Source: Pseudomonadales bacterium (GTDB taxonomy: Bacteria; Pseudomonadota; Gammaproteobacteria; Pseudomonadales; Pseudohongiellaceae). From it: a stretch of 54,597 bases of DNA. Below the pieces are notes generated by a model that made no database searches, had not been told where the DNA came from, and saw only the letters and a list, made by a program, of their open reading frames with translations. The position numbers and the translations under genes were made by a program. Below, in pieces: positions 21,342 through 44,508 of this stretch. Position 1 is the first letter of the stretch; each line of letters opens with the position of its first letter. The stretch spans positions 1 through 54,597 of the forward strand of contig JAJEGU010000073.1 of NCBI GenBank assembly GCA_022819645.1, written 5' to 3'.

Positions 21342-22391
21342 TCAGGTCAGCGCATCGAGTATCAGATTGGTGGATTCGACGATGCGCTGGTCCCGGGGGC
21401 GCAGATCGGGCTCGAAGGCGCTGCCGGTGAGATGTTGCAGGCCGAGAATATAGCGCACGGCGATTTCATTGGCCTGCTCGTCGCTGAATTGCTGGTCGCG
21501 GCTTTTCACCATGCCCCGGGCGAATTCCTTGGAGAAGGATACCGGCTTGCCGTTTTCCCGCAATATTTCGCCCCGCTCGTCCAGACGCCAGAAACGGCTC
21601 GAATCCATGGTATACAACTCGTCCGCGGCGACAATCCTGTCCTCGACGTTGCGACCGTGCTCGGTCTTGGTGTCCACCAGCACCATACCCTTGTTCGCGA
21701 GATAGCCGGAAACCAGGCCGAACGCCATCAGCGAGGCATTGCGAATCTGGGCGTATTCGCCTTCGCTGCAGGCACCGGCAGCAATCAGCGAGGCGGCGTC
21801 GCTGGTGGCGTCCACGGCCGCCTTGGTGCTTGGCGTATCCATCAAATAGGGCAGCCGGCCATTGGGCTTGAGTTCATCGACCACCAGATGGTGCCCCGCA
21901 TAATTGAATTCGGCGGCGCCTTCCTCCTTCGCCTGCAACCAGTGCTGGTACAGCGAAGTGGAAGTGCTCGACTCCGCCATGTACATGCGCAGCACATTTT
22001 CGAGCCCGAACAATTGCAGGTTTTCCGCGGGGATCACCGTGGAGGCCGGAAGCAATCCCTCCACTGCAAACTGGGAACTGCCAAGCAGCGGCGACACGAG
22101 GCCGAGCATGTGGTCGTGATTCAGCGCGAGCACCTGGTCCTTGAATGGAATTGCCCCGCGATTGACGTCATGGGTGGAAATACGGTTGTTGCGGAACATC
22201 AGCCGCAGGGGCCTGCCATCCCGGCTGCGCAAGTCCGCGCCATAGACCGAATCAGAAACCTTGCCCTCCTGCACTGTGGCGCCGGCAAGCCGCGGCAATT
22301 CGCCATCGGCAATCAGCTGCCGCACCGGGCGGCCGGTATTCACCCGCGGGCCATATTCCACCACGAGTTCCCGTATCGATCTTTCGTCCAT
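21342..22391 (-). CDS. purC: Phosphoribosylaminoimidazole-succinocarboxamide synthase (SAICAR synthase)
   Basis: A 349-residue protein, the longer form of SAICAR synthase found in eukaryotes and some bacteria. It ligates aspartate to CAIR in purine synthesis, using ATP. Recognisable pieces are GKVSDSVYG near the N-terminus, RNNRISTHDVNRGAIPFKDQVL, LVDTKTEHGRNVEDRIVAADELYTMDS (printed here in part as the metal/nucleotide site) and SRFWRLDE. Two ATG codons lie in tandem at 22394 and 22391; the second is better spaced from AGGAA. Overall identity is clear. Confidence 0.88.
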   Translation of the reverse strand: MDERSIRELVVEYGPRVNTGRPVRQLIADGELPRLAGATVQEGKVSDSVYGADLRSRDGRPLRLMFRNNRISTHDVNRGAIPFKDQVLALNHDHMLGLVSPLLGSSQFAVEGLLPASTVIPAENLQLFGLENVLRMYMAESSTSTSLYQHWLQAKEEGAAEFNYAGHHLVVDELKPNGRLPYLMDTPSTKAAVDATSDAASLIAAGACSEGEYAQIRNASLMAFGLVSGYLANKGMVLVDTKTEHGRNVEDRIVAADELYTMDSSRFWRLDERGEILRENGKPVSFSKEFARGMVKSRDQQFSDEQANEIAVRYILGLQHLTGSAFEPDLRPRDQRIVESTNLILDALT

Positions 22392-22582
22392 CATTTCCTG
22401 TTCCAGAACCAGGACAGCCGCCGGGGCAGCCGGAAGAAGGGCGAGGCACCAGCGGTCGCACCATACCACATCGGGAAGGGGAATGGATTCGCAGCCGGGA
22501 GCCTTATCCGGCAATCAGGATGCGGAAAGTCCCGGGCAACTTGCGACGGGTGAATTGCGGTAGTATTCGACGGATTACCCCC

Positions 22583-22638: not shown

Positions 22639-23685
22639 TTGGCCTTGCGCGATTCAAACAAGCACCCGCCGGGCGCATTGGAGGCGGACCGGCAATATCA
22701 GGCAGGGATCCTGCCTGCCGTATCGCGCACTTTCGCCTTGACGATCCCCGCCCTGCCGGACCGCCTCGCCCTGGTGGTGGCCAATGCCTATCTGCTGTGC
22801 CGCATTGCCGATACCGTCGAGGACGACCCGCAACTTGCAGCCGGGGAGAAGGAGGTCGGGCTCGGGCGGTTCCTCGCCGCGGTCAAGGGGGAGGAAGACG
22901 CCGCCGGCTTCTCCGCCGCAATGGCGCCCCGGCTGGCTCCGAAAACTCCCGAGGCGGAACGCGAACTGATGCGTAATGTGGCGCGGGTGGTTGCCGTAAC
23001 CCATTCCTTCAGCGACGCGGAGCGCCGGATACTTGAGCGCTGCGTCAGCATCATGTGCGGCGACATGCCGAAATTCCAGCGCAACAGCAGCCTGGCGGGG
23101 CTGCGGGACCTGGCCGAACTCGACGCCTACTGCTACGCCGTGGCGGGCGTCGCCGGCGAGATGCTCACCGACCTGTTCTGCATTCATTGCCCGGAGCTTG
23201 CGCCGAAGCGGGAGGAGTTGCGCAAGCTCGCGGTGTCTTTTGGCCAGGGTCTGCAAATGACCAATATCCTCAAGGACATCTGGGACGACCACGAGCGCGG
23301 CGCCTGCTGGCTGCCCCGTTCGGAATTCGATGATGGGCGCCTGGAACTCGCGAAACTGCCGGAAATCCACTTGCGCGGCGAGTTCCAGCAAGGCTTGCAG
23401 AGCCTGATCGCCGTCGCCCACGGGCATCTCGTGAACGCCCTCGAATTCACCTGCCACCTGCCCGGCCGGGAGCGGGGGATGCGCCGCTTTTGTCTCTGGG
23501 CCCTGGGTCTTGCGGTACTGAGCCTGCAGAAGCTCCGGCGCAATTCCGGCTTCACCGCCTCCGATCAGGTAAAAGTGTCCCGGCGCAGCGTGCGCGCCAC
23601 GGTATTGGCCACCAATCTGCTGGTGTCAAACAATCCCGGCCTGCGCGGCCTGTTCCGCTTCGCCGCCCGGGGGCTGCCCCGCTGA
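22639..23685 (+). CDS. sqs: Squalene synthase (squalene/phytoene synthase family)
   Basis: A 348-residue trans-prenyl transferase that would condense two farnesyl diphosphates head to head to squalene. The motifs in order are SRTFALTIPAL (29-39), the first Asp-rich ADTVEDD (57-63), YCYAVAGVAGEMLTDLF (164-180) and the second Asp-rich NILKDIWDD (209-217). A single protein doing this, rather than the HpnCDE trio, fits a dedicated sterol route. The start is a TTG with ACAGGA upstream; a second TTG lies two codons later. It is the only plus-strand gene of the sterol locus, and its 3' end overlaps the end of the convergent cyclase gene by 60 bases. Phytoene synthase is the main alternative; the context argues for squalene. 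Confidence 0.82.
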   Translation: MALRDSNKHPPGALEADRQYQAGILPAVSRTFALTIPALPDRLALVVANAYLLCRIADTVEDDPQLAAGEKEVGLGRFLAAVKGEEDAAGFSAAMAPRLAPKTPEAERELMRNVARVVAVTHSFSDAERRILERCVSIMCGDMPKFQRNSSLAGLRDLAELDAYCYAVAGVAGEMLTDLFCIHCPELAPKREELRKLAVSFGQGLQMTNILKDIWDDHERGACWLPRSEFDDGRLELAKLPEIHLRGEFQQGLQSLIAVAHGHLVNALEFTCHLPGRERGMRRFCLWALGLAVLSLQKLRRNSGFTASDQVKVSRRSVRATVLATNLLVSNNPGLRGLFRFAARGLPR

Positions 23686-26600
23686 GGATCCCACCCGCAA
23701 TTGACGGGCGCGACGTCGGCGCTCGAAAAGGCCAAGCGCATGGAGCGGAAAGTATTGCCGGTACAACTCGTAATCGAGCAATGCGGTGCGAAAGAAAACT
23801 CCCGCCATGTCCTGTTTCGGCCAACTGCCGTCAGCTTGCTGGGCATCAATCAGGAATCTTGCGCCCCGGGAGATTGCAGTCCAGTGTGAATCGCCGGCTT
23901 CCAGCAGGGCGAGCAGTGCCCAGGCGGTCTGGATGATCTGGCTTTCCTGGTGTTCGACGTAGGCGCCGCTGAGACAAGCACTGGCATGTTCACCCCAGCC
24001 GCCGTCGCTACGCTGGCGATCCAGCAGCCAGCGGCAGGCCTGCCTGAGCGCCGGGTCGCCGGGACGGGCGCCGCCCGCCACCAGCCCCTTGACGCCAAAC
24101 ATCGTGCCATAGATGTATTGCACCCCCCAGACGCCCCGCCAGGAGCCATCCCCGGCCTGATTGCGCCGCAGCCAGTCATCGGCCCTGGCCATGGCCTTGT
24201 CCACTTCGGGCTCCACGGCCCCGGTGTATTCCCGACGGCAGGCGGCAAGCGCGGCCAGGCAGGATGCCGTGCATTCCACATAGGAATGTTCGGTCATGCA
24301 CTCGCCGAACATTTCCGCCGGATTGAGCCATTCGAGGCCGATGCGGGAGCGTCTGGCCTCGTAACTGCCGAAGCCGCCGTCCCGGCACTGGCTCCGCAGC
24401 ATGAAGCGGATGCCCCGGGTCATGGCTTCCCGGGCCTCCCCCGGCTCTCCCGCGGCAAGCACGCCGAGCATGGCTTCGGCGGTGCAGTCGCTTACCGGCC
24501 AGCCGTGCCAGACGCCGGCAAAGCACCAACCGCCCTCGGGGTCATTGCGAAAAGCTTCATGAAAGCCCGGGAAGCTGCGGGGAATCTGCTGACTGCGAAG
24601 AAAGTCCGCCCCCCGCCCGAGGCTGGCTTTCACCACATCGCTTTGGTTGGCGGCAGCCAGCGCCTGCAGGGCGAAGCCGGTGTCCCAGGAAGCGCTGCGG
24701 GCGCCGGCGATTCGGGTTCCACCGGATTCATCTTCCCATATCCAGTCTTCGAGTTTCGCCAGGGCCTGCCCGCAGTCCGCATCGTCCTGATCGTGCAGCC
24801 ACAGGGCCAGAATATTGAGCATGCCGCTTACCGGGGAAATACTGGTATGGCTCGAGCTTTGCAACTCCCAGCGGATGCGCTCGATCAACTCATCCCGGCA
24901 ACGGGCGCGCAGGCGCTTGTTGTGGAAGCGCTCATAGCACCGGGCCAGCGCATATCCGCTCCGCAGCCAGCGGCTCGGTCGAGCGAACAGTTCCTCCTCC
25001 CGCAGCCGATTGCGCCCGGCGCTGAAGTCCATCGAGTCATAGCCATCCGGATACAATTCTTGCCGCAGGGTTTCAGCAAGACGATTCTCCGGCAAGCCAT
25101 TGCGGTGGGCAGAAACCGCCGCCATCGCCATATAGATGAGGCGGGTGTGGCAGTACCAGTTGGCTGGATGCAGCGCCAGCCAGCGCGGCAGGCGCCAGAG
25201 CTCCGGCAGCGGCACATGCATCCCCCGCCAATCATAGAGGCCGAGCAGCGCTAGCCAGAATTTCCCCCAGCTTGGAATATTCAGCACGCCTTCCCGCCCG
25301 ATAAACTCCCGGGCCGGGGCAATGAGCGGGTCGTCGGGTCTTACATCGAGCACCCGCGCCGCCACATACACCAGGGTCGTGACATACAGGTAAGCCCCGG
25401 ACTGTTCGTGCAGCCCCCACAGCCCATGGGCAAGACGGGTCCGCTCGAACTGTCGCAGCAGCAGGCGGCGACGCTCCGGGACGATGGGTTTGTCGATGAT
25501 GTGATGCAGCAGCGCATACTGGGCGGCAAGCATGGGGCACCACTGCATTTCGCCTTCCCAGGCGCCATCTTCCCGCTGCAGGGCCAGCAGGCGCTTGCCT
25601 GCATTCTCCAGGGCAGCGGCGGCGCCATTCGCCGGCTCAACCGGCGGATCCGGGAGCGCGCTGTGGGTGTACCCCCGCATGGAAGACAGGAAGGCTCCGG
25701 ACATCTTGTCCAGCACGATCTTTTCATTGGCGCCAGTCAGGCTGCGCGCCTCGCGCATTTCCCCCACAGCGCCCACCAGCGCGCGGATTCGCCTGGCAAT
25801 CGCGCGGAAATCCTGAAAAGACCGGCGCCAGGCGATCCGCCCCCCGGGCTTGAACAGCCTGTCCCCAACGCCGGCCAATACGGTTGTGGTGAATGCCAGG
25901 CTGAGCAAGCCCACGGACCGGTTTTCACAGGCAAGCAACTGCATGGTCTGCCGGCGAATGAGCTTGCTGAGGCGCCAGTTACCGTAGATCGCCTGCCGCA
26001 GGGAGGCCGACTCCAGACCATGGTCGCTGAAGACTTCGTACAGCCCCATGGCAAGAAGCTGCGGCGCCCGGGTGTCCTTGAGCCGCCGCAGGGAGAAATC
26101 CCGGAAGTTGCTGCTATCGGCCAGGGCGAGGGCGTCTCCGAAACCGAGAGTCATGCCGGCGGCGGTCATCGGATGATAATGTCCGGCGGCATCGCCGATG
26201 AGCGTCCGCCGGCTGCTTCCGTAGGTAAGCCGCGGCCGCAATTCATTGGCGGCGGCCTGGAAGTTCCCCGCCTGCAATTCGGCAACGAAGGCCGCCCCGA
26301 GACCGTCCGGCAGCAGGCCGGCATAAGATTCCGCAAGCACATGAATCCGATCTTTTGGCGTCCAGTGATCCAGCGGCATGTCGGCAATGACCCGCACCCG
26401 GCCTCCGCCAAGTGGTACGGTAAGCATGGGCCCCGGGCCGCCGAGCACCACGTAGCCATAGCCTTCGTGGGCCAGTTCCGCGTTTTCCACCACCACGCCC
26501 ACCATTCGCGAGCAGGTCATGCGCTCCGTGGGCAGCCCGAGTGATTGCCGCACGATGGAAGCGCGCCCATCGGCGCCGACGATGCGCCCGGCGCGCAGCA

Positions 26601-27084
26601 GGCGTTTCTCGCCGTCCTGACTGAAACGGATGGCATCGTCTTCGATTGCCCGGGCCCGGGCGCGCCGGAAAACATCGATGGAGGGTATTTCCCCGATCGC
26701 TTCATGCAGGGCGGCCACCAGGGCGGCATGTTCGAATACCAGGCCGCTGGCGCCGTCGGCATAGGGCAATACCACAGGCACTGAGCCGTCTTCGGGAAAT
26801 ACCACGAACCCTTTGCCCGGAGAAAATCCCGGACAGCCATCAAGATCAATGCCGACACTTTGCAGCATCCGCACGGCGGGCGGGTGCAGCCATTCTCCCG
26901 CCAGCCGATCCGCGGCTTTGGGATTGGCTTCGAGCAAGGCAACCCTGAAGCCCTTGCGGGCATGGGCCAGGGCGCAGAGACTGCCCACCGGCCCAGCGCC
27001 GACAATGGCGATGTCGTAGCTGGCGTGCTGTCCCTTCAGTGGCTCAGGCTGGTCCGGGAGCGGCGTTGATAGCGAATGCGACAT
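23626..27084 (-). CDS. Squalene epoxidase - oxidosqualene cyclase fusion protein
   Basis: A continuous 1152-residue frame with two enzymes. Residues about 22-440 are an FAD monooxygenase: GAGPVG (29-34), GADGRAS (170-176) and GDAAGHYHPMTAAGMT (297-312), the last matching the GD-HP-GMT block of squalene epoxidases. Residues about 485-1125 are a triterpene cyclase. They have QREDGAWEGEMQW, HPANWYCHTRLIYMAM with His646 at the human His232 position, catalytic SDCTAE (D866, 865-870), and QW repeats QAGDGSW, QRSDGGW and QQADGSW. DCTAE rather than DDTA marks oxidosqualene, not squalene-hopene, cyclases. The fusion would convert squalene to a protosterol in one polypeptide. The start at 27084 overlaps the end of cyp51 by 49 bases; there is no alternative start that splits the domains. 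Confidence 0.88.
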   Translation of the reverse strand: MSHSLSTPLPDQPEPLKGQHASYDIAIVGAGPVGSLCALAHARKGFRVALLEANPKAADRLAGEWLHPPAVRMLQSVGIDLDGCPGFSPGKGFVVFPEDGSVPVVLPYADGASGLVFEHAALVAALHEAIGEIPSIDVFRRARARAIEDDAIRFSQDGEKRLLRAGRIVGADGRASIVRQSLGLPTERMTCSRMVGVVVENAELAHEGYGYVVLGGPGPMLTVPLGGGRVRVIADMPLDHWTPKDRIHVLAESYAGLLPDGLGAAFVAELQAGNFQAAANELRPRLTYGSSRRTLIGDAAGHYHPMTAAGMTLGFGDALALADSSNFRDFSLRRLKDTRAPQLLAMGLYEVFSDHGLESASLRQAIYGNWRLSKLIRRQTMQLLACENRSVGLLSLAFTTTVLAGVGDRLFKPGGRIAWRRSFQDFRAIARRIRALVGAVGEMREARSLTGANEKIVLDKMSGAFLSSMRGYTHSALPDPPVEPANGAAAALENAGKRLLALQREDGAWEGEMQWCPMLAAQYALLHHIIDKPIVPERRRLLLRQFERTRLAHGLWGLHEQSGAYLYVTTLVYVAARVLDVRPDDPLIAPAREFIGREGVLNIPSWGKFWLALLGLYDWRGMHVPLPELWRLPRWLALHPANWYCHTRLIYMAMAAVSAHRNGLPENRLAETLRQELYPDGYDSMDFSAGRNRLREEELFARPSRWLRSGYALARCYERFHNKRLRARCRDELIERIRWELQSSSHTSISPVSGMLNILALWLHDQDDADCGQALAKLEDWIWEDESGGTRIAGARSASWDTGFALQALAAANQSDVVKASLGRGADFLRSQQIPRSFPGFHEAFRNDPEGGWCFAGVWHGWPVSDCTAEAMLGVLAAGEPGEAREAMTRGIRFMLRSQCRDGGFGSYEARRSRIGLEWLNPAEMFGECMTEHSYVECTASCLAALAACRREYTGAVEPEVDKAMARADDWLRRNQAGDGSWRGVWGVQYIYGTMFGVKGLVAGGARPGDPALRQACRWLLDRQRSDGGWGEHASACLSGAYVEHQESQIIQTAWALLALLEAGDSHWTAISRGARFLIDAQQADGSWPKQDMAGVFFRTALLDYELYRQYFPLHALGLFERRRRARQLRVGSSAGQPPGGEAEQAAQAGIV

Positions 27085-28427
27085 GGCAGCCTGGGGCCGG
27101 TGACCCAGCTTCCGTAATTCGGGGCGGGAAATGGCGTGGCGAGTTGAAAATCGAAGCGGTCCAGCAAAACGGTCCAGATGGCCTTGATCTGCATGATGGC
27201 GAAATTCTTGCCCATGCAGCGGTGTTTGCCGCCGCCAAAGCCGATCAGGGCGTAGGGATGCTGTTTTTCCTCACTGGAAGGCGGGGTGAAACGATCCGGG
27301 TTGAAGGATTCCGGGTCGGCGAATACTTCGGGCAGGCGATGGGAAACCGCTGGCGAAATCGCCGCCAGGGTTCCTGCGGGCACGGTGTAATCGCCGTAGC
27401 GCAAGGGTCTGAGCACCCTGCGAAAGAGAATGATCAGCGGTGGATGCAGGCGCTCGCATTCGCGCACGGTGTTTTCCATGGTTTGCTGCTGCTTCAGGCC
27501 GGCATAGCTCAACCTCGCCTCGTCCTGGTACACCGCCTGGATCTCTTCCCGCAGCCGGTCGGGAAAGGGCGCATGCCGGTGCATTTCGAGTGCGGCCCAG
27601 GTGGCGAGCACGGCGCTGGTGTGCTGACCGGCAAACAGTACCGTGAGCAGTATCCCGGTGATCTCGTCATCGCTCAGGCTGCGGCCATCCTTGTAGCTCG
27701 CCCGCATCAGGGTCTGCATGAAATCGGCGGATTCGGCGCCGCTTTGGCGCCGTTCATTCATGATGCGGATGAAGATTTCGGTGATTCTGTGCCGCGCCCG
27801 GTCCCGGCTCCGATGGGCGGGAGTCGGCAGCCGGGGAAAGAAAAAACCCAGGGTATTGATGCCGTTTTGCAGGTCGTGGTAGGCCTCGGCAAAGCCGGAA
27901 TCGACTTCATTGCGAATTTCCTCGCCGAGAAAGCAGCGGCTGGCGATATGGATCGTGAGTTCGTTCATTGCCACCGGCAGGTCGATCTCGCCCTGCTCGC
28001 CCAGGGAGTCGGCAAAGCGTTTGGTTTCCTCGTGCATGATGTCCACATAGCGCTTCATGGCGGACTCGCGCAGCGCGGGAAACAGAAACCCGAGCTGCTC
28101 GGTCATGACTTCGGAGGAAACATCGTAGGCCACGCCGCGGCCGAAGATGGGCACGGTGAACTGATACACCGATTTGGCGTCCAGGGTTTCTTCCGGGGCC
28201 TTGAAGTAGGCGTTGTGGGCGTCAAGGCCGGAAAACAATACGAACTTGCGCGGCCCGAGTCGAAACTCGAACAACTCCCCCTGCTCCCGGCAGCCCCGGC
28301 TGAGCATGGCGACGGGGTCGCGCTGGAATTCCCGCAAATGGCCAAGCAGAGGCCAGCCGCCGGAAACTTCAGGCGGAGATGGCCCGGTTTCCAGGGTAGC
28401 TTCGGCGCTTTGCGAACCCGGTGTCAT
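27036..28427 (-). CDS. cyp51: Sterol 14-alpha-demethylase, cytochrome P450 CYP51
   Basis: A 463-residue P450 without a membrane anchor, as in bacterial CYP51. The diagnostic B'-C region YQFTVPIFGRGVAYD (88-102) is present. The I-helix GQHTS (268-272 by count) has the CYP51 His in place of the usual acid, then ECER (ExxR) and the haem loop FGGGKHRCMGKNF with Cys404. It would remove the 14-alpha methyl of the protosterol in three oxidations, leaving a C14 double bond for the reductase encoded next to it. The start at 28427 lies 8 bases after the C14 reductase stop; the longer upstream frame is not used. Electron donors are not in the window. Confidence 0.92.
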   Translation of the reverse strand: MTPGSQSAEATLETGPSPPEVSGGWPLLGHLREFQRDPVAMLSRGCREQGELFEFRLGPRKFVLFSGLDAHNAYFKAPEETLDAKSVYQFTVPIFGRGVAYDVSSEVMTEQLGFLFPALRESAMKRYVDIMHEETKRFADSLGEQGEIDLPVAMNELTIHIASRCFLGEEIRNEVDSGFAEAYHDLQNGINTLGFFFPRLPTPAHRSRDRARHRITEIFIRIMNERRQSGAESADFMQTLMRASYKDGRSLSDDEITGILLTVLFAGQHTSAVLATWAALEMHRHAPFPDRLREEIQAVYQDEARLSYAGLKQQQTMENTVRECERLHPPLIILFRRVLRPLRYGDYTVPAGTLAAISPAVSHRLPEVFADPESFNPDRFTPPSSEEKQHPYALIGFGGGKHRCMGKNFAIMQIKAIWTVLLDRFDFQLATPFPAPNYGSWVTGPRLPCRIRYQRRSRTSLSH

Positions 28428-28435
28428 TGCGGCTC

Positions 28436-29539
28436 TCAATAGACAAAGGGCAGCATGGCGAACCGCGCCCGCCGGGTGTAGCGCTCCCAGAGCTCGCCGT
28501 ACTTGGCGCGGCAGCGGCGCTCGTCGCGCAGGCAGCGGTGGGACAGCAATGCCGCCAGCCATACCGGCAGCAGCAGGGGCACAAGCGAGGCGAATCCCGC
28601 GGTGAGGGTGAAGGCCAGATACACGCAGATTTCGCCGGTGTAGTTCAGGTGCCTGCCAATGCCCCAGAATCCCGAAACCAGCAGCCGCCCGTCGAGTGAT
28701 TCGGCGGGTTTGCCCCAGATGCGGGTGGCCGGGTCCTGCCTGAAACGGTGCTTTTGCCCATTGGCGCCGCGAAACAGCCAGAAGCCGAACAGAAACAGCA
28801 GCACCAGCCCGGCGGCCGCGGGCGCCGGCAGGGCGGGGCCGGCGGCGTCCACCAGCCACCAGCCGGTGATGCAGTAGAAGAAGGGCACGAGCACATAATC
28901 GCCCCAGACAAGCATCCAGCCGAAACGTTCGGCGACGATGTCCCAGGTGTGAATCATGCCGTGCTCGAACTGGAAGTAATTGAAGACATAGAGAAAGGTG
29001 AAAAGCTGATACAAGACCATGGCCAGGCTGAGTTCGCCGTGGGTTTCGTACTGCACCACGGCGAAAGAGGCATTGAACAGCGCCAGCCCGATCAGCGAGG
29101 GGCGATAGCTGAACATTTTCAGATCAATGCCCAGGCACGAGGGGTTCAGTTCCCTGCCGAAAAAATAGCCGCGCCAGAATCCCGCCGGCGCCCCCGGCGC
29201 CTTCGCGCCGCGCCAGTACAGCCAGCCGGCAAAGGCAAAGGCGAAAACATTGGCCATCACGAACAGCGCCGGGAAATGGCTGTACAGCATCGCCAGCGAA
29301 AACCAGCCGAAATATCCCGCAAGGCCGGCCAGGGCGAAGCTCAGCAGGAACAGATGCAGGCCATTGAGCTTGCAGGGTCGGCTCGCGCCAGCGGCGTCGC
29401 GCAGCATGAGTTCACGCCCCGGCAGCAGCCGGGAACCGGCGAAGAGGAAGGCGATGAAGCCAAGCAGCAGCAGCGCGGCTTGCAGCAGCGTCGCCGCCGA
29501 AAACATGCCGGTGGCGAATGGCGAATCAGGCGGCGGCAT
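28436..29539 (-). CDS. Sterol C14 reductase, ERG24/DHCR7 family
   Basis: A 367-residue polytopic membrane protein with about nine to ten hydrophobic segments. The family C-terminus is plain: LLVSGFWGIGRHLNYTGE, with the RHxNY motif for NADPH, and RCLRDERRCRAKYGELWERY. Upstream, LNPSCLGIDLKMFSYRPSLIG and FEHGMIHTWDIVAERFGWML match the ERG4/ERG24 sterol-reductase fold. It would reduce the C14(15) double bond made by CYP51; C7 or C24(28) specificity cannot be excluded from sequence alone. The start at 29539 overlaps the Rieske gene end by 14 bases; a second ATG at 29506 is possible. The RBS is weak, so translational coupling is likely. Confidence 0.88.
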   Translation of the reverse strand: MPPPDSPFATGMFSAATLLQAALLLLGFIAFLFAGSRLLPGRELMLRDAAGASRPCKLNGLHLFLLSFALAGLAGYFGWFSLAMLYSHFPALFVMANVFAFAFAGWLYWRGAKAPGAPAGFWRGYFFGRELNPSCLGIDLKMFSYRPSLIGLALFNASFAVVQYETHGELSLAMVLYQLFTFLYVFNYFQFEHGMIHTWDIVAERFGWMLVWGDYVLVPFFYCITGWWLVDAAGPALPAPAAAGLVLLFLFGFWLFRGANGQKHRFRQDPATRIWGKPAESLDGRLLVSGFWGIGRHLNYTGEICVYLAFTLTAGFASLVPLLLPVWLAALLSHRCLRDERRCRAKYGELWERYTRRARFAMLPFVY

Positions 29540-30632
29540 GTCCGGCCCCGGCTTCCCGCTCGAGATACTCCTGCCACTTGCGCACGGTGACCCGCTGGAA
29601 AGCCGCCACCACCGGATTGACCTCAATCGCCGGCTCGTCCCAATGTTGCTCGTAACCGAATTGCTCGGCTTCCACGGCAACCCGGTCCTGGTCGAGCAGG
29701 GGGCCGATCAGCAGCCGGTTGGAAATCTTCATCAGGGTCTTCATGGCAAAGCGCGGAATGCGCACCGGCAGCAGGGGGATTTTCAGCGACTTGAAGTAGA
29801 ACAGGAAAAATGTCCGGGTGGTGCGCTCATCAATGGGCAGCACAAACAGCCAGTGCTTGATTTCATTGTCGGTATTGGACCACTGGTAGGGGTACTGGTA
29901 GCACAGCTTCATGTGGTTGGTATCGAGCCGGCCATGATCGACAAACAGGCCGGAGATGCGCCCGCGACCGACTCTGGAGTCGTACTCCAGATGCACGTCG
30001 TCACCCACGGTTTCGCAGGCGGTGAGTTCGGCCCCGTCGAAGGGGCGGTACTTGCGGTGCAGGTGGGCGTGGGAAAAATCGCTCACATTGTCGATGATCA
30101 TCGAATGATGAGCCGAGCAGGTGAACCCCAGGGGCACGCAGGCCCAGCGGTCCTTGCCTTCGATTTCGGGAATCTCGGGAATGCCGCGCTGCCCCGCGAG
30201 TTCCGGATTGCCGGGGAAAAGCCAGACCAGCCCATAACGCACCCTGACCGGATAACTGCGGATGGAGATGTCGGGCAGTTCCTTGCGGCCGAACAGGTCG
30301 GGGATTTCCACCACCCGGCCTTGCTCATCGTACTTCCAGCCGTGGTAGGCGCAGACCAGCTTGCAGTCATCCACCTGCCCGAGCGACAGCTTGAGCTGGC
30401 GATGGGCGCAGCGGTTTTCCACCGCGTGAAATTCTCCGTCATCGCTGCGAAAAAGGGCGATGGAGCGTTTCCAGAACACCACCTCCACCACGCTTCCGGG
30501 TTTGACATTGCGCACTTCTTCCACCGCGTACCAGTAATCCGGACACATGCCCGCCGCCCGGGATTTCTGCCGCAGGCCGCGGGCCTCCGCGAAGTCCGGT
30601 GGAGCCGCTGTTGCCGATGCTGCCGGATTCAT
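29526..30632 (-). CDS. sdmA: Rieske-type sterol C4 demethylase oxygenase, SdmA-like
   Basis: A 368-residue Rieske non-haem iron oxygenase. The [2Fe-2S] ligands are in CAHRQ (C75, H77) and CAYHGWKYD (C94, H97). The mononuclear iron site is NVSDFSHAHLH (D185, H188, H192). In Methylococcus capsulatus the Rieske enzyme SdmA oxidises the C4 methyl of sterols, and the adjacent SDR SdmB completes decarboxylation and oxidation at C3. The same two enzyme types are side by side here, which is the basis for the assignment. The start overlaps the sdmB stop as ATGA. Confidence 0.85.
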   Translation of the reverse strand: MNPAASATAAPPDFAEARGLRQKSRAAGMCPDYWYAVEEVRNVKPGSVVEVVFWKRSIALFRSDDGEFHAVENRCAHRQLKLSLGQVDDCKLVCAYHGWKYDEQGRVVEIPDLFGRKELPDISIRSYPVRVRYGLVWLFPGNPELAGQRGIPEIPEIEGKDRWACVPLGFTCSAHHSMIIDNVSDFSHAHLHRKYRPFDGAELTACETVGDDVHLEYDSRVGRGRISGLFVDHGRLDTNHMKLCYQYPYQWSNTDNEIKHWLFVLPIDERTTRTFFLFYFKSLKIPLLPVRIPRFAMKTLMKISNRLLIGPLLDQDRVAVEAEQFGYEQHWDEPAIEVNPVVAAFQRVTVRKWQEYLEREAGAGHAAA

Positions 30633-31855: not shown

Positions 31856-32800
31856 CTAGTCAACATTCAGCTTGCTGGTCCAGAATATGTCGATATTGCC
31901 CAGGCTGTTGTCGGCCCGGGAGGAAAACCAGGTTATCGTTTCCTGGCCGGGGGGCAGCGCCGGGCACATGTCAGCGCCTGCGGTATTCACCTGTGGCCCG
32001 AGATTGAAGGGCGGCCCCCAGCTGTCCACGCCCTCGGCGGCGGCGCCCCAGATATCCATGCCGCCATAGCCTCCCGGCCGGCTTGAGGTGAAATACACGG
32101 TGCCGTCTTCGGCCTGGCTGAAATGGAATTCCTCGCCTTCGGTATTGATATTCGGCCCCTGGTTCACCGGCTCCATCCAGTTGCCGGCGGCATCCTGCCG
32201 CGAGCAGTAAATGTCGGAACCGCCGAAGCCGCCCGCCCGTCGCGATGCGAAGCAAAGCGTTTCGCCGTCCTGCAGAATCGCCGGGCAATGTTCATCGCCT
32301 TCGTCGGTGCTGATGGGGTAGCCCATGAGTTCCGGCTCGGTCCATTCGCCATTCACCTTGCGGGTGATGAAGATGTCATTGTTGTTCTGCGGCGATGTGG
32401 TCGCCAACCTGTCGGACTTGAAGTAGATGGTATTGCCGTCTGCGGTGATCCAGGGCTCACGGTCATCGCCCTTGCGCAGGGGGTCCACATCGGTGGCGGG
32501 CGCCGCATTGACGGGCATGCCCATGTTCACCGGGGTGTTCCAGGTGCCGGTTTCCTGGTTGAAAGTGGCGATATACAGGTCTTTCGGGTCACCGGGCGCC
32601 ACGGCCATGTCCTGCCGCGCGCTGCAATAGACCATGGTGCCATCGTCGGCAAAGGATAATTCCCCTTCGGCCCACATGGTATTGATGGGAGCGCCGAAAT
32701 TGTGCACGGCAAGTTCCACCCAGTCATTCTGGGCCATGGATGCGCTGCCCGCGGCGAATACCGTCGCCGCCAGCGCAAGTCTTGCAAGGATTCTGTTCAT
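31856..32800 (-). CDS. Exported PD40/TolB-like beta-propeller protein
   Basis: A 314-residue periplasmic protein with a signal peptide (cleavage near SMAQN). It contains at least five PD40-type strands: EGELSFADDGTMVYCSARQD, REPWITADGNTIYFKSDR, EHCPAILQDGETLCFASRR, EFHFSQAEDGTVYFTSSRPG and DMCPALPPGQETITWFSSR. Each blade carries the D-G-x-x-[IVL]-x-F-x-S core. Such propellers bind other proteins or glycans. It lies 78 bases upstream of sdmB and 17 bases downstream of a small exported protein, all on the same strand, so it could be cotranscribed with the sterol enzymes. An AGGAAGGAAAG RBS precedes the start. Confidence 0.8.
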   Translation of the reverse strand: MNRILARLALAATVFAAGSASMAQNDWVELAVHNFGAPINTMWAEGELSFADDGTMVYCSARQDMAVAPGDPKDLYIATFNQETGTWNTPVNMGMPVNAAPATDVDPLRKGDDREPWITADGNTIYFKSDRLATTSPQNNNDIFITRKVNGEWTEPELMGYPISTDEGDEHCPAILQDGETLCFASRRAGGFGGSDIYCSRQDAAGNWMEPVNQGPNINTEGEEFHFSQAEDGTVYFTSSRPGGYGGMDIWGAAAEGVDSWGPPFNLGPQVNTAGADMCPALPPGQETITWFSSRADNSLGNIDIFWTSKLNVD

Positions 32801-42143: not shown

Positions 42144-44363
42144 TCAATTCACCCGGTTGACCGGGGATGGGCCGAAAGATAGCCAGCCTCCCTGGTACTT
42201 TGCGCCGCCAGCGTCGCCGCGGCTCCAGTCGCATACGCCGTCGGCGAAAATCATCTGCAATTCGGCCCATTCGCGTTCGGTAAGCGGCTGACGATACTCA
42301 TCCCGGTTCACGGGCCGCAAGTGGCAGGAGACGATGTTGTTCGCCAGCGGGGCCCCCGCCACATGGCGCGGCGTGGGATACGCGGGATACAGCTCGCCGC
42401 AGCGGCCCTCGCCGGCGTAGCCGAGTTCTTCCTCGATCCTGATTCGCTCCGGGCCGGTGGCGTCCCAGCAGGCGTCATTCAGTCGGGTGGGTCGGTTGGT
42501 GGCAACGATCAGGTCCGCCGGCATGGATGACTCGTCGCGCCGGATCGCCAGAATCCACTCATCCATGCTCCGAAACAACTCGCCGAGATCATCGTTCCCG
42601 GGCTCAAAACCCCATTGCCCGCCGATCTGCATGACGTGATTGCGGGCATTGCCATTGGCGAGCCGCAGCCGTTCCCGGGTCGAGAACTGATGCACGATCA
42701 TGTGGATATCGCCGTTTTCGGCGTGGTCGGTGTAGCTGCGGTAATCGATCACCGGGATTGCCGCGAGCCCACCGCCACCGTTGAGTATGCGGCCCGATTC
42801 GAAGGCCCGGCGACTGGCGAGGGGGTCGGCGCGGTGGCGCTCGAATACATGGTTCAGGTCGCGGTCAAAACCGCCGATATCGCGGTTCAGATCGATGAAC
42901 TGCCGCGCCGTGATCCGCCCGGCATGGAAAGCGGCGAGGCCGTATTGCACGCCGTAATTGTCCAATGGGCGCAGGGCGCTGCCGCTGGCCGGGTCTGCTC
43001 CGTATACGTTGACGGTGTGATCGTAGACAGTGGCCCGGATTCCCCCCTGTCCCGGACGATAGAGAATCGCGTGCAATGCGTCCAGGCCTACTTCGCCGCC
43101 CTGGTCCTCTGGCAGCGCATTGGGCTCGAAGATGGGGTCGAGCCGGGCCGCGCCGCGGCTGAGACTGGCGATGGAGCCCAAGGACCCGAATCCCGATACC
43201 GCCTGCTGCTGCTCGGGGCTGAATTCACCGGGGCTGATCACTTCAAAGTAGTGGTGCAGCAGTCGCGCATCGGCGACGGTGAAAATGGTTGCCGAGGTGA
43301 CATCGGGGAAGCTTGCGGAAACGATGATGCCATCGAATACGCCGGGATAATTGTCGGCGGTCTGGTGTGACTGGTAGGAACCGCCGGAAACTCCGGTGGC
43401 GATGGTGTAGTCGGGCGGGCCATAACGCTCGATAAAGCGCTCCTTGACCATGATATGGGTTTCGGAAGCGAGCAGGTCGTTGCAGTTCTGGCCGAACACA
43501 TTGAGCGAGGAAGAGACGACGGCATATCCCTGCTCGAACAGGCCCCGCCGCATGACGCCGCCGGTTCGCGCGCCCTGCCGGTACCAGCCGCCCCGGCAAC
43601 CGCCGCCGTGGGTGTAGACCAGCTTGCCGTTCCAGCCATGGCTGCGTTGCCACGGACCGGGTTCGCCCTGGGCCGGGTCGTGCAGCATGGCGATTTCGTA
43701 GATGGCGCGGTTCACCGTGCCGGTTTCCACCCGGACGACATAGGGAATCATCCTGCCCCGGCTCAGGATCCGGGACAGATCAGCGGGCGGCAAGGCGCCA
43801 GGGCCAGACGGGTAGGGTTTGAAGTCCTGCTCCAGATCGCTCCAGTAGACATGGTCCACCCGGCTTGCCACCGAGCAGTTCCGGTTCAGCGGCTCGCCGA
43901 GAAAGTCGCCCGCCACAGTGCGGAACTGACCGGTTTCGCAGTAAAAAGGCGCCTGTTGTGGGCCCGAAATGATGGGGCCGGTAATGGGCCAGTTGGTGAT
44001 GGCCAGTTTTGCCTCCCCGCCCGCGCCGGCAATGCTCGCGACGAGCTCGCTTTCGCCTTCGGGCAGCCCTTCGAGCAGCCCCTGCATGGCCTGCTCGCTC
44101 GTCTGGCGAAACCCGGCGGAGACATTTTCCCCATTCAATTCGATTCGCAAGGCGCCCTGCTGCAGGGAACGGGCCGCATCGGTCAGCCGTACTTCAACGA
44201 GGGCGTCGCCGCCGGTGACCAGCCAGGGGCGGGTGGAAAGCACCTTGATTTCGATGGGCGGCGCGGCCTCAGGCTCCATCAGCATCCCGCTGGTACTCAC
44301 CGGTTCGGTACAGGATGTCACCAGCAATCCGGCAAGAACAGGCAGAAAATACAGGCGGCTCAT
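42144..44363 (-). CDS. Large lipoprotein, DUF6351-type alpha/beta-hydrolase-like
   Basis: A 739-residue protein with a lipobox LLVTSC. It matches what I know as DUF6351: an N-terminal Ig-like part (EIKVLSTRPWLVTGGDALVEV), then FYCETGQFRTVAG and WNGKLVYTHGGGCRGGWYRQG. The nucleophile-elbow-like TIATGVSGGSYQSHQTAD (G-x-S-G-G-S) follows, and an SFPDVTSATIF segment. Late blocks include YRSYTDHAENGDIHMIVHQF with a possible catalytic Asp/His, and a C-terminal WSRGDAGGAKYQGGWLSF. It is presumably a periplasmic or outer-membrane hydrolase of large esters; the substrate is unknown. The start at 44363 gives the lipobox at the right distance. Confidence 0.75.
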   Translation of the reverse strand: MSRLYFLPVLAGLLVTSCTEPVSTSGMLMEPEAAPPIEIKVLSTRPWLVTGGDALVEVRLTDAARSLQQGALRIELNGENVSAGFRQTSEQAMQGLLEGLPEGESELVASIAGAGGEAKLAITNWPITGPIISGPQQAPFYCETGQFRTVAGDFLGEPLNRNCSVASRVDHVYWSDLEQDFKPYPSGPGALPPADLSRILSRGRMIPYVVRVETGTVNRAIYEIAMLHDPAQGEPGPWQRSHGWNGKLVYTHGGGCRGGWYRQGARTGGVMRRGLFEQGYAVVSSSLNVFGQNCNDLLASETHIMVKERFIERYGPPDYTIATGVSGGSYQSHQTADNYPGVFDGIIVSASFPDVTSATIFTVADARLLHHYFEVISPGEFSPEQQQAVSGFGSLGSIASLSRGAARLDPIFEPNALPEDQGGEVGLDALHAILYRPGQGGIRATVYDHTVNVYGADPASGSALRPLDNYGVQYGLAAFHAGRITARQFIDLNRDIGGFDRDLNHVFERHRADPLASRRAFESGRILNGGGGLAAIPVIDYRSYTDHAENGDIHMIVHQFSTRERLRLANGNARNHVMQIGGQWGFEPGNDDLGELFRSMDEWILAIRRDESSMPADLIVATNRPTRLNDACWDATGPERIRIEEELGYAGEGRCGELYPAYPTPRHVAGAPLANNIVSCHLRPVNRDEYRQPLTEREWAELQMIFADGVCDWSRGDAGGAKYQGGWLSFGPSPVNRVN

Positions 44364-44508
44364 GGCAGTGCATCCCAACACAAAGGCGAACGGCTATTGT
44401 GGAAACCCGGCCCGGCAAGGTCAAGGTTGGTGAACGTTTGCCGCGGTGGCGCGAGACTTTATCCGTCATCCCGCGCGGAGCCCCTCTCCCTGTCGGGGCC
44501 ACTTCATG

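Follow-up and report, generated by a model that had tools for sequence, protein, structure and literature searches.

Joining of the two enzymes that open sterol synthesis into one bacterial gene was described in 2020 for MsbE from a gammaproteobacterial symbiont of the sponge Melophlus sarasinorum, where a single gene encodes a protein with squalene epoxidase at its N-terminus and a sterol cyclase at its C-terminus (PMC7074536). In the methods of another paper 'fused SMO/OSC homologs' are mentioned, the N-termini of which were trimmed off; these are the same fusion, which the main text, with 'fused' used once and 'fusion' zero times, does not discuss in those words (PMC10070321). Steroid gene clusters of the order found here, and their horizontal transfer, were reported from Ircinia symbionts in 115 of 537 genomes and 10 phyla; as a rule a dihydroflavonol-4-reductase-type gene marks the 5' end of the cluster, and an oppositely oriented gene for either a sterol methyltransferase or squalene synthase lies at its 3' end (PMC9531527). 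The words 'fusion', 'fused', 'SQLE', 'epoxidase' and 'monooxygenase' are absent from the main text of that report, and we infer that the epoxidase half is hidden there under the cyclase annotation. 'Fusion' and 'fused' are likewise absent from the accessible parts of PMC4919349 and PMC10202945. The gene considered here, a fusion of squalene epoxidase (SE) and oxidosqualene cyclase (OSC), lies on contig JAJEGU010000073.1 of a Pseudomonadales bacterium (assembly GCA_022819645.1), the whole analysed stretch of 54,597 nucleotides being called the window. It is one more example of a type which is already known, although the initial annotation had regarded such a fusion as undescribed, and a fuller earlier account may exist.

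The gene resembles MsbE, as far as the latter is described, in having the SE first, both domains in one frame, and the valine of lanosterol-type cyclases. Its locus likewise contains genes for an NAD(P) oxidoreductase, a Rieske oxygenase, a sterol reductase and a C14-demethylase. This likeness refers to described architecture and locus and not to sequence; the database protein P0106 (62%) may or may not be MsbE. In the published description the squalene synthase gene of the MsbE symbiont is located on another scaffold, whereas a squalene-synthase-type gene adjoins the present fusion in convergent orientation, and the methyltransferase gene msbF belongs to the MsbE locus, whereas here a sterol-methyltransferase domain is found on contig C14. 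With the Ircinia clusters, as described, the locus shares ERG24, CYP51 and lanosterol synthase in that order.

The fusion is a single open frame without any internal stop, as had been claimed for it, and its N-terminus resembles that of seven aligned relatives. The gene and its parts are as follows.

23626..27084, minus strand: SE-OSC fusion gene, 1152 codons, ATG at 27084, stop at 23626-23628
25744..27024, minus strand: SE domain, residues 21-447, predicted model matching human SQLE
26149..26196, minus strand: GD...HP...GMT flavin block, residues 297-312, from the translation
25624..25671, minus strand: joint, about residues 472-487, from comparison with the separate SE and OSC genes of locus L082
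23701..25632, minus strand: OSC domain, residues 485-1128, predicted model matching human OSC
24475..24489, minus strand: DCTAE motif, residues 866-870, Asp866 aligning with human Asp455

Pfam models and the translation bear out that a full-length cyclase follows the SE. FAD_binding_3 was matched at residues 23-322, SE (PF08491) at 169-407 with 62.0 bits (cut-off 20.1), SQHop_cyclase_N at 493-786 with 159.8 bits (cut-off 26.2) and SQHop_cyclase_C at 797-1120 with 201 bits (cut-off 26.1), and the wider model of squalene and oxidosqualene cyclases, TIGR01787, reached 503.9 bits at a cut-off of 322.7. Prediction of the whole chain, one of the checks which had been proposed, yielded both human folds over the residues listed, with a predicted template modelling score (pTM) of 0.81; the predicted local distance difference test (pLDDT) fell below 50 at residues 473-478 in the joint. 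Among 44 aligned fusions the flavin residues D172 and G173 (DG motif), G297, D298, H304, P305 and G310 were invariant, and G29 and G31 of the Rossmann motif for flavin adenine dinucleotide (FAD) were present in 42, the other two having gaps. The N-terminal half thus carries the FAD Rossmann motif, the DG motif and the GD...HP...GMT block of the SE family together with its family model and fold. On the cyclase side the acid motif and its partners (D866, C867, C938, H646 and Y908) were invariant in all 44, as was V864, which corresponds to position 453 of the human enzyme and is the residue of lanosterol-type OSCs. Human equivalents were assigned by alignment with human OSC, and from them D866 and its partners presumably take their catalytic roles.

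That this is a single natural gene, and not an assembly join, was confirmed in independent assemblies. Of 97 genomes (the source genome, 60 of its genus and 36 of its order), seven including the source, all of the same genus, matched over 1110 or more of the 1152 residues, with identities of 100, 93, 89, 88, 71, 70 and 70%. The copies at 93, 89 and 88% are also in single frames, not the separate genes in close relatives which would have pointed to an artefact, and one same-genus genome is a single contig. The match in G022 of this genus carries a TAG, which is read as the gene's own stop because its open frame spans query residues 1-1120. Besides its 70% copy the same genome has a second, partial fusion copy that is 58% identical (G022:C47:142-2415). 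A protein database gave 1205 matches at E ≤0.001 among 7993 candidates scored, and both domains are present in all of the best 120 of these; a 97%-identical copy is located on a contig of 3,510,664 bases.

The same architecture was then looked for in public genomes, as had also been suggested, with six short peptide patterns of this protein, a procedure that favours close relatives and counts near-identical metagenome bins several times. Of 86 confirmed matches the best 80 were kept, which gave 79 distinct loci; 69 of them have both domains in one frame, four of these running into a contig end (L067, L070, L075, L084). The remaining ten comprise three myxobacterial-type OSCs without SE in frame (L086, L087, L097), the separate pair L082, L060 and L069 with a broken frame in the OSC half, the partial L093, and the contig-edge pieces L096, L098 and L100. 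The 67 fused loci kept for trees fall by record title into eight phyla: Pseudomonadota (46), Nitrospirota (6), Gemmatimonadota (3), Acidobacteriota, Rhodothermota and Chloroflexota (2 each), and Binatota and Actinomycetota (1 each); four loci could not be placed. A sponge is named in two record titles, L028 (Spongia) and L050 (sponge), and most other fused loci are, judged from bin names, presumably sponge symbionts as well. A less biased sample was an even draw of 369 genomes from the source's class. Six of these had a strong cyclase match, three with a fusion (the source, G274 and G123) and three with the OSC apart, either alone (G268) or with an SE beside it (G231 and G343). A second protein search took only proteins of about 350-1116 residues, so that longer fusions are under-represented, and 66 of its 119 new proteins had no SE match. 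These 66 were not counted as separate cyclase genes, as P0147, P0150 and others start with joint-like residues and may be fragments.

The joint is shorter than it first appeared. About 45 residues had been stated to lie between the domains, which holds for the alignment gap (residues 440 to 488) but not for the joint proper. In L082 (6953-10403) an SE of 482 codons and an OSC of 662 codons starting from TTG lie 13 bases apart in different frames; by eye, this SE can be followed along the fusion to about residue 471 and the OSC sets in at about 486, so the joint proper comprises about 16 residues. A 21-base tandem repeat surrounds the OSC start in L082. In most fused loci whose SE alignment reaches residues 431-440 the Blast gap between the halves is 48-56 residues. 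In five pairs of close relatives the ratio of nonsynonymous to synonymous substitution rates (dN/dS) was 0.11-0.22 for the SE and 0.18-0.22 for the OSC, and both halves look to be under purifying selection; for residues 441-487 it was 0.30-0.68, based on 4 to 16 changes per pair.

Genome-wide there is a single match to the cyclase model PF13243, and one strong and two weak SE matches (E 6e-5 and 4e-4). No further sterol-type SE or triterpene cyclase was found by profile matches in this draft assembly of 85 contigs, which is 97.73% complete. As there is one cyclase and one strong SE match, epoxidation and cyclisation are likely to depend on this gene alone.

Human SE epoxidises squalene with FAD and molecular oxygen, and Asp455 of human OSC protonates the epoxide. 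The fusion is probably one bifunctional enzyme, which would perform squalene epoxidation and then cyclisation of 2,3-oxidosqualene to lanosterol. This is suggested by the single frame, both folds in the model, the conserved catalytic residues, the position in a sterol operon, the low dN/dS and the lack of a second epoxidase or cyclase among the matches. With FAD and O2 the SE half would form 2,3-oxidosqualene, and D866 would protonate the epoxide and so start ring closure. Squalene would be supplied by the product of the convergent squalene-synthase-type gene, and demethylation would proceed with the CYP51, ERG24, SdmA-like and SdmB-like products. Lanosterol is the expected product because Val864 aligns with human Val453. 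According to PMC4919349 position 453 is the sole one conserved between bacterial and eukaryotic cyclases, and valine there correlated fully with lanosterol among the bacteria tested.

Several observations weigh against this assignment. The 2,3-oxidosqualene cyclase model TIGR03463 was missed with 706 bits at a curated cut-off of 851, perhaps since that model was built on other bacteria. Ala795 and His860, equivalent to human 381 and 449, are outside the lanosterol set; histidine at 449 is the cycloartenol-synthase state, and of positions 381, 449 and 453 only Val453 has the lanosterol state. No activity assay of any SE-OSC fusion, MsbE included, was found in the literature examined. Finally, the joint is not essential, because relatives have separate genes (L082) or an OSC with no SE in the 14 kb examined (G268).

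All genes immediately upstream of the fusion belong to one strand, with the order 5' to 3' of SdmB-like, SdmA-like, ERG24, CYP51-like and SE-OSC.

27036..28427, minus strand: CYP51-like cytochrome P450, PF00067 217.2 bits, ATG at 28427
28436..29680, minus strand: sterol C14-reductase of the ERG4/ERG24 family, PF01222 227.2 bits, ATG at 29539
29526..30632, minus strand: Rieske oxygenase, SdmA-like (C-4 demethylation), best NCBIfam match NF052579, 409.2 bits
30629..31792, minus strand: NAD-dependent oxidoreductase, SdmB-like, best NCBIfam match NF052578, 312 bits
22639..23685, plus strand: squalene synthase-type gene, convergent, PF00494 163.6 bits

The SdmA and SdmB models were the best match of each protein, but their NCBIfam cut-offs of 600 bits were not reached, and the names are therefore kept as '-like'. 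The 3' end of the CYP51-like gene overlaps the fusion start by 49 bases, and the squalene synthase-type gene, which scored 80.1 bits with TIGR01559 and thus below its cut-off of 286.75, overlaps the fusion 3' end by 60 bases. Sequence extends for 6 kb or more upstream in 53 of the fused loci. Among these, each of the four upstream genes occurs in 47, the complete set in 46 and exactly this order in 45, and five have none of the four; a convergent squalene synthase was present in six. The sterol-methyltransferase C-terminal match on C14 is the only one, and sterol alkylation at C-24 could take place.

A true substrate channel, in which oxidosqualene would be handed over from SE to OSC while staying on the protein or in the facing membrane patch, would add to the bifunctional enzyme rather than exclude it. 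The pTM of the whole chain suggests a defined arrangement and the joint is kept across phyla, but the low pLDDT falls within the joint, and relatives with separate genes exist; we consider a channel rather unlikely. The safer reading is that the joint does no more than keep the two enzymes in equal amounts and in one place at the membrane. An open frame from which two proteins are made, through internal initiation or cleavage of the joint, is improbable. In-frame start codons are available at residues 437-469 (ATG at 443, 461 and 469; GTG at 437, 440 and 457) and the joint is the less constrained part by dN/dS, but a possible start (ATG or GTG) accompanied by a Shine-Dalgarno-like four-mer occurred in the tested region in only 7 of the 69 fused loci, a raw count with no chance level, and the half-to-half spacing is steady in most loci across phyla. 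Still less credible is a cyclase half that takes squalene directly, with a flavin half serving another substrate: hopene cyclases have a DxDD motif and the fusion has DCTAE, the hopene-cyclase model TIGR01507 gave 271 at a cut-off of 431, and the neighbours are CYP51, ERG24 and SdmA/B-like genes. That two genes were joined by a missed stop or indel, or by a chance frame, has practically no probability left, as the draft state of the source assembly and frame breaks inside the OSC half at two of the 79 loci (L060, L069) stand against the recurrence of the architecture in loci and proteins, the megabase-sized contig and the one-contig genome, which already refute it.

Both enzyme types also share a neighbourhood in L082, L118 and G231, where they are not fused. 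On the Planktothrix agardhii plasmid (L118) SE and OSC are separate, on opposite strands and 1.8 kb apart, if, as we take it, the annotated FAD-dependent monooxygenase is the SE; in G231 the separate genes lie side by side, OSC then SE, and the SE is merely 31% identical. The plasmid region (L118:3145-12415), with an OSC 56% identical to the source's, the divergent FAD monooxygenase, a squalene/phytoene synthase gene and P450 genes, is likely a triterpenoid cluster. L108 (from G123) and L107 (from G268) are of the same family, the G123 fusion having a different joint sequence.

The SE tree and the OSC tree recover the same group of nine rows around the source's gene. In the OSC tree rows without SE, some of which may be fragments, nest among fusions, giving 13 changes of the fused label with at least six forced by starred branches; a second OSC tree gave three changes. 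In a tree of joined SE and OSC, L082 and all 51 fused rows are set apart from Planktothrix and two myxobacterial rows (starred, 99), and L082 is nested among the fusions. L108 takes the deepest position in the SE tree and in the joined one, and in the OSC tree it stands next to OSCs of myxobacteria; a second, independent fusion in its lineage is possible. Approximately unbiased tests did not reject the fusions as one clade, either without L108 (p 0.667, the constrained tree being 12.1 log units better) or with it (p 0.404, 9.0 log units worse). Gene fission, which the nested rows including L082 would suggest, is not claimed, and since the tests do not reject one clade neither fission nor a proven single origin is put forward. 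The phyla are interleaved, but because these are quick trees with weak backbone support and mostly metagenome bins, horizontal transfer is not claimed from them alone and leans on PMC9531527.

Another finding was a different fusion in Myxococcota, in which SE, a cyclase-like middle part and squalene synthase form one chain (L087:5261-8629, plus strand; L086:1181-4825, plus strand; protein P0284). No report of this SE-squalene synthase fusion was found in literature searches. Catalytic motifs are missing from the middle part in nearly all of the 120 proteins listed and, judged from weak profile matches, this part may have a toroid fold; shorter proteins, about 810-870 residues long, apparently lack it. 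Tentatively, and with odds somewhat short of even, SE may be regarded as a fusion hub, joined once to OSC and spread within a ready-made sterol operon via symbionts of many phyla, while Myxococcota joined it to squalene synthase, often via a dead cyclase-like toroid that could dock a separate OSC. If so, either fusion would keep squalene and oxidosqualene within a single membrane-bound assembly line. A wide range of uncultured bacteria have the epoxidation and cyclisation at the opening of sterol synthesis in one gene, so that one of the two enzymes may be overlooked in surveys which treat them as separate annotations. The fusion is a ready test of whether tethering alters flux, and its spread bears on sponge sterol producers and on steranes as biomarkers.

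Further genes of the window were noted in passing. A SAICAR-synthetase-family gene (21342-22514, minus strand) adjoins the squalene synthase, an arrangement seen in just 2 of the 69 fused loci, and a PD40 beta-propeller repeat protein is encoded just upstream of the SdmB-like gene (31856-32800, minus strand). A DUF6351 tannase-like protein (724 bits) is encoded at 42144-44381 on the minus strand.
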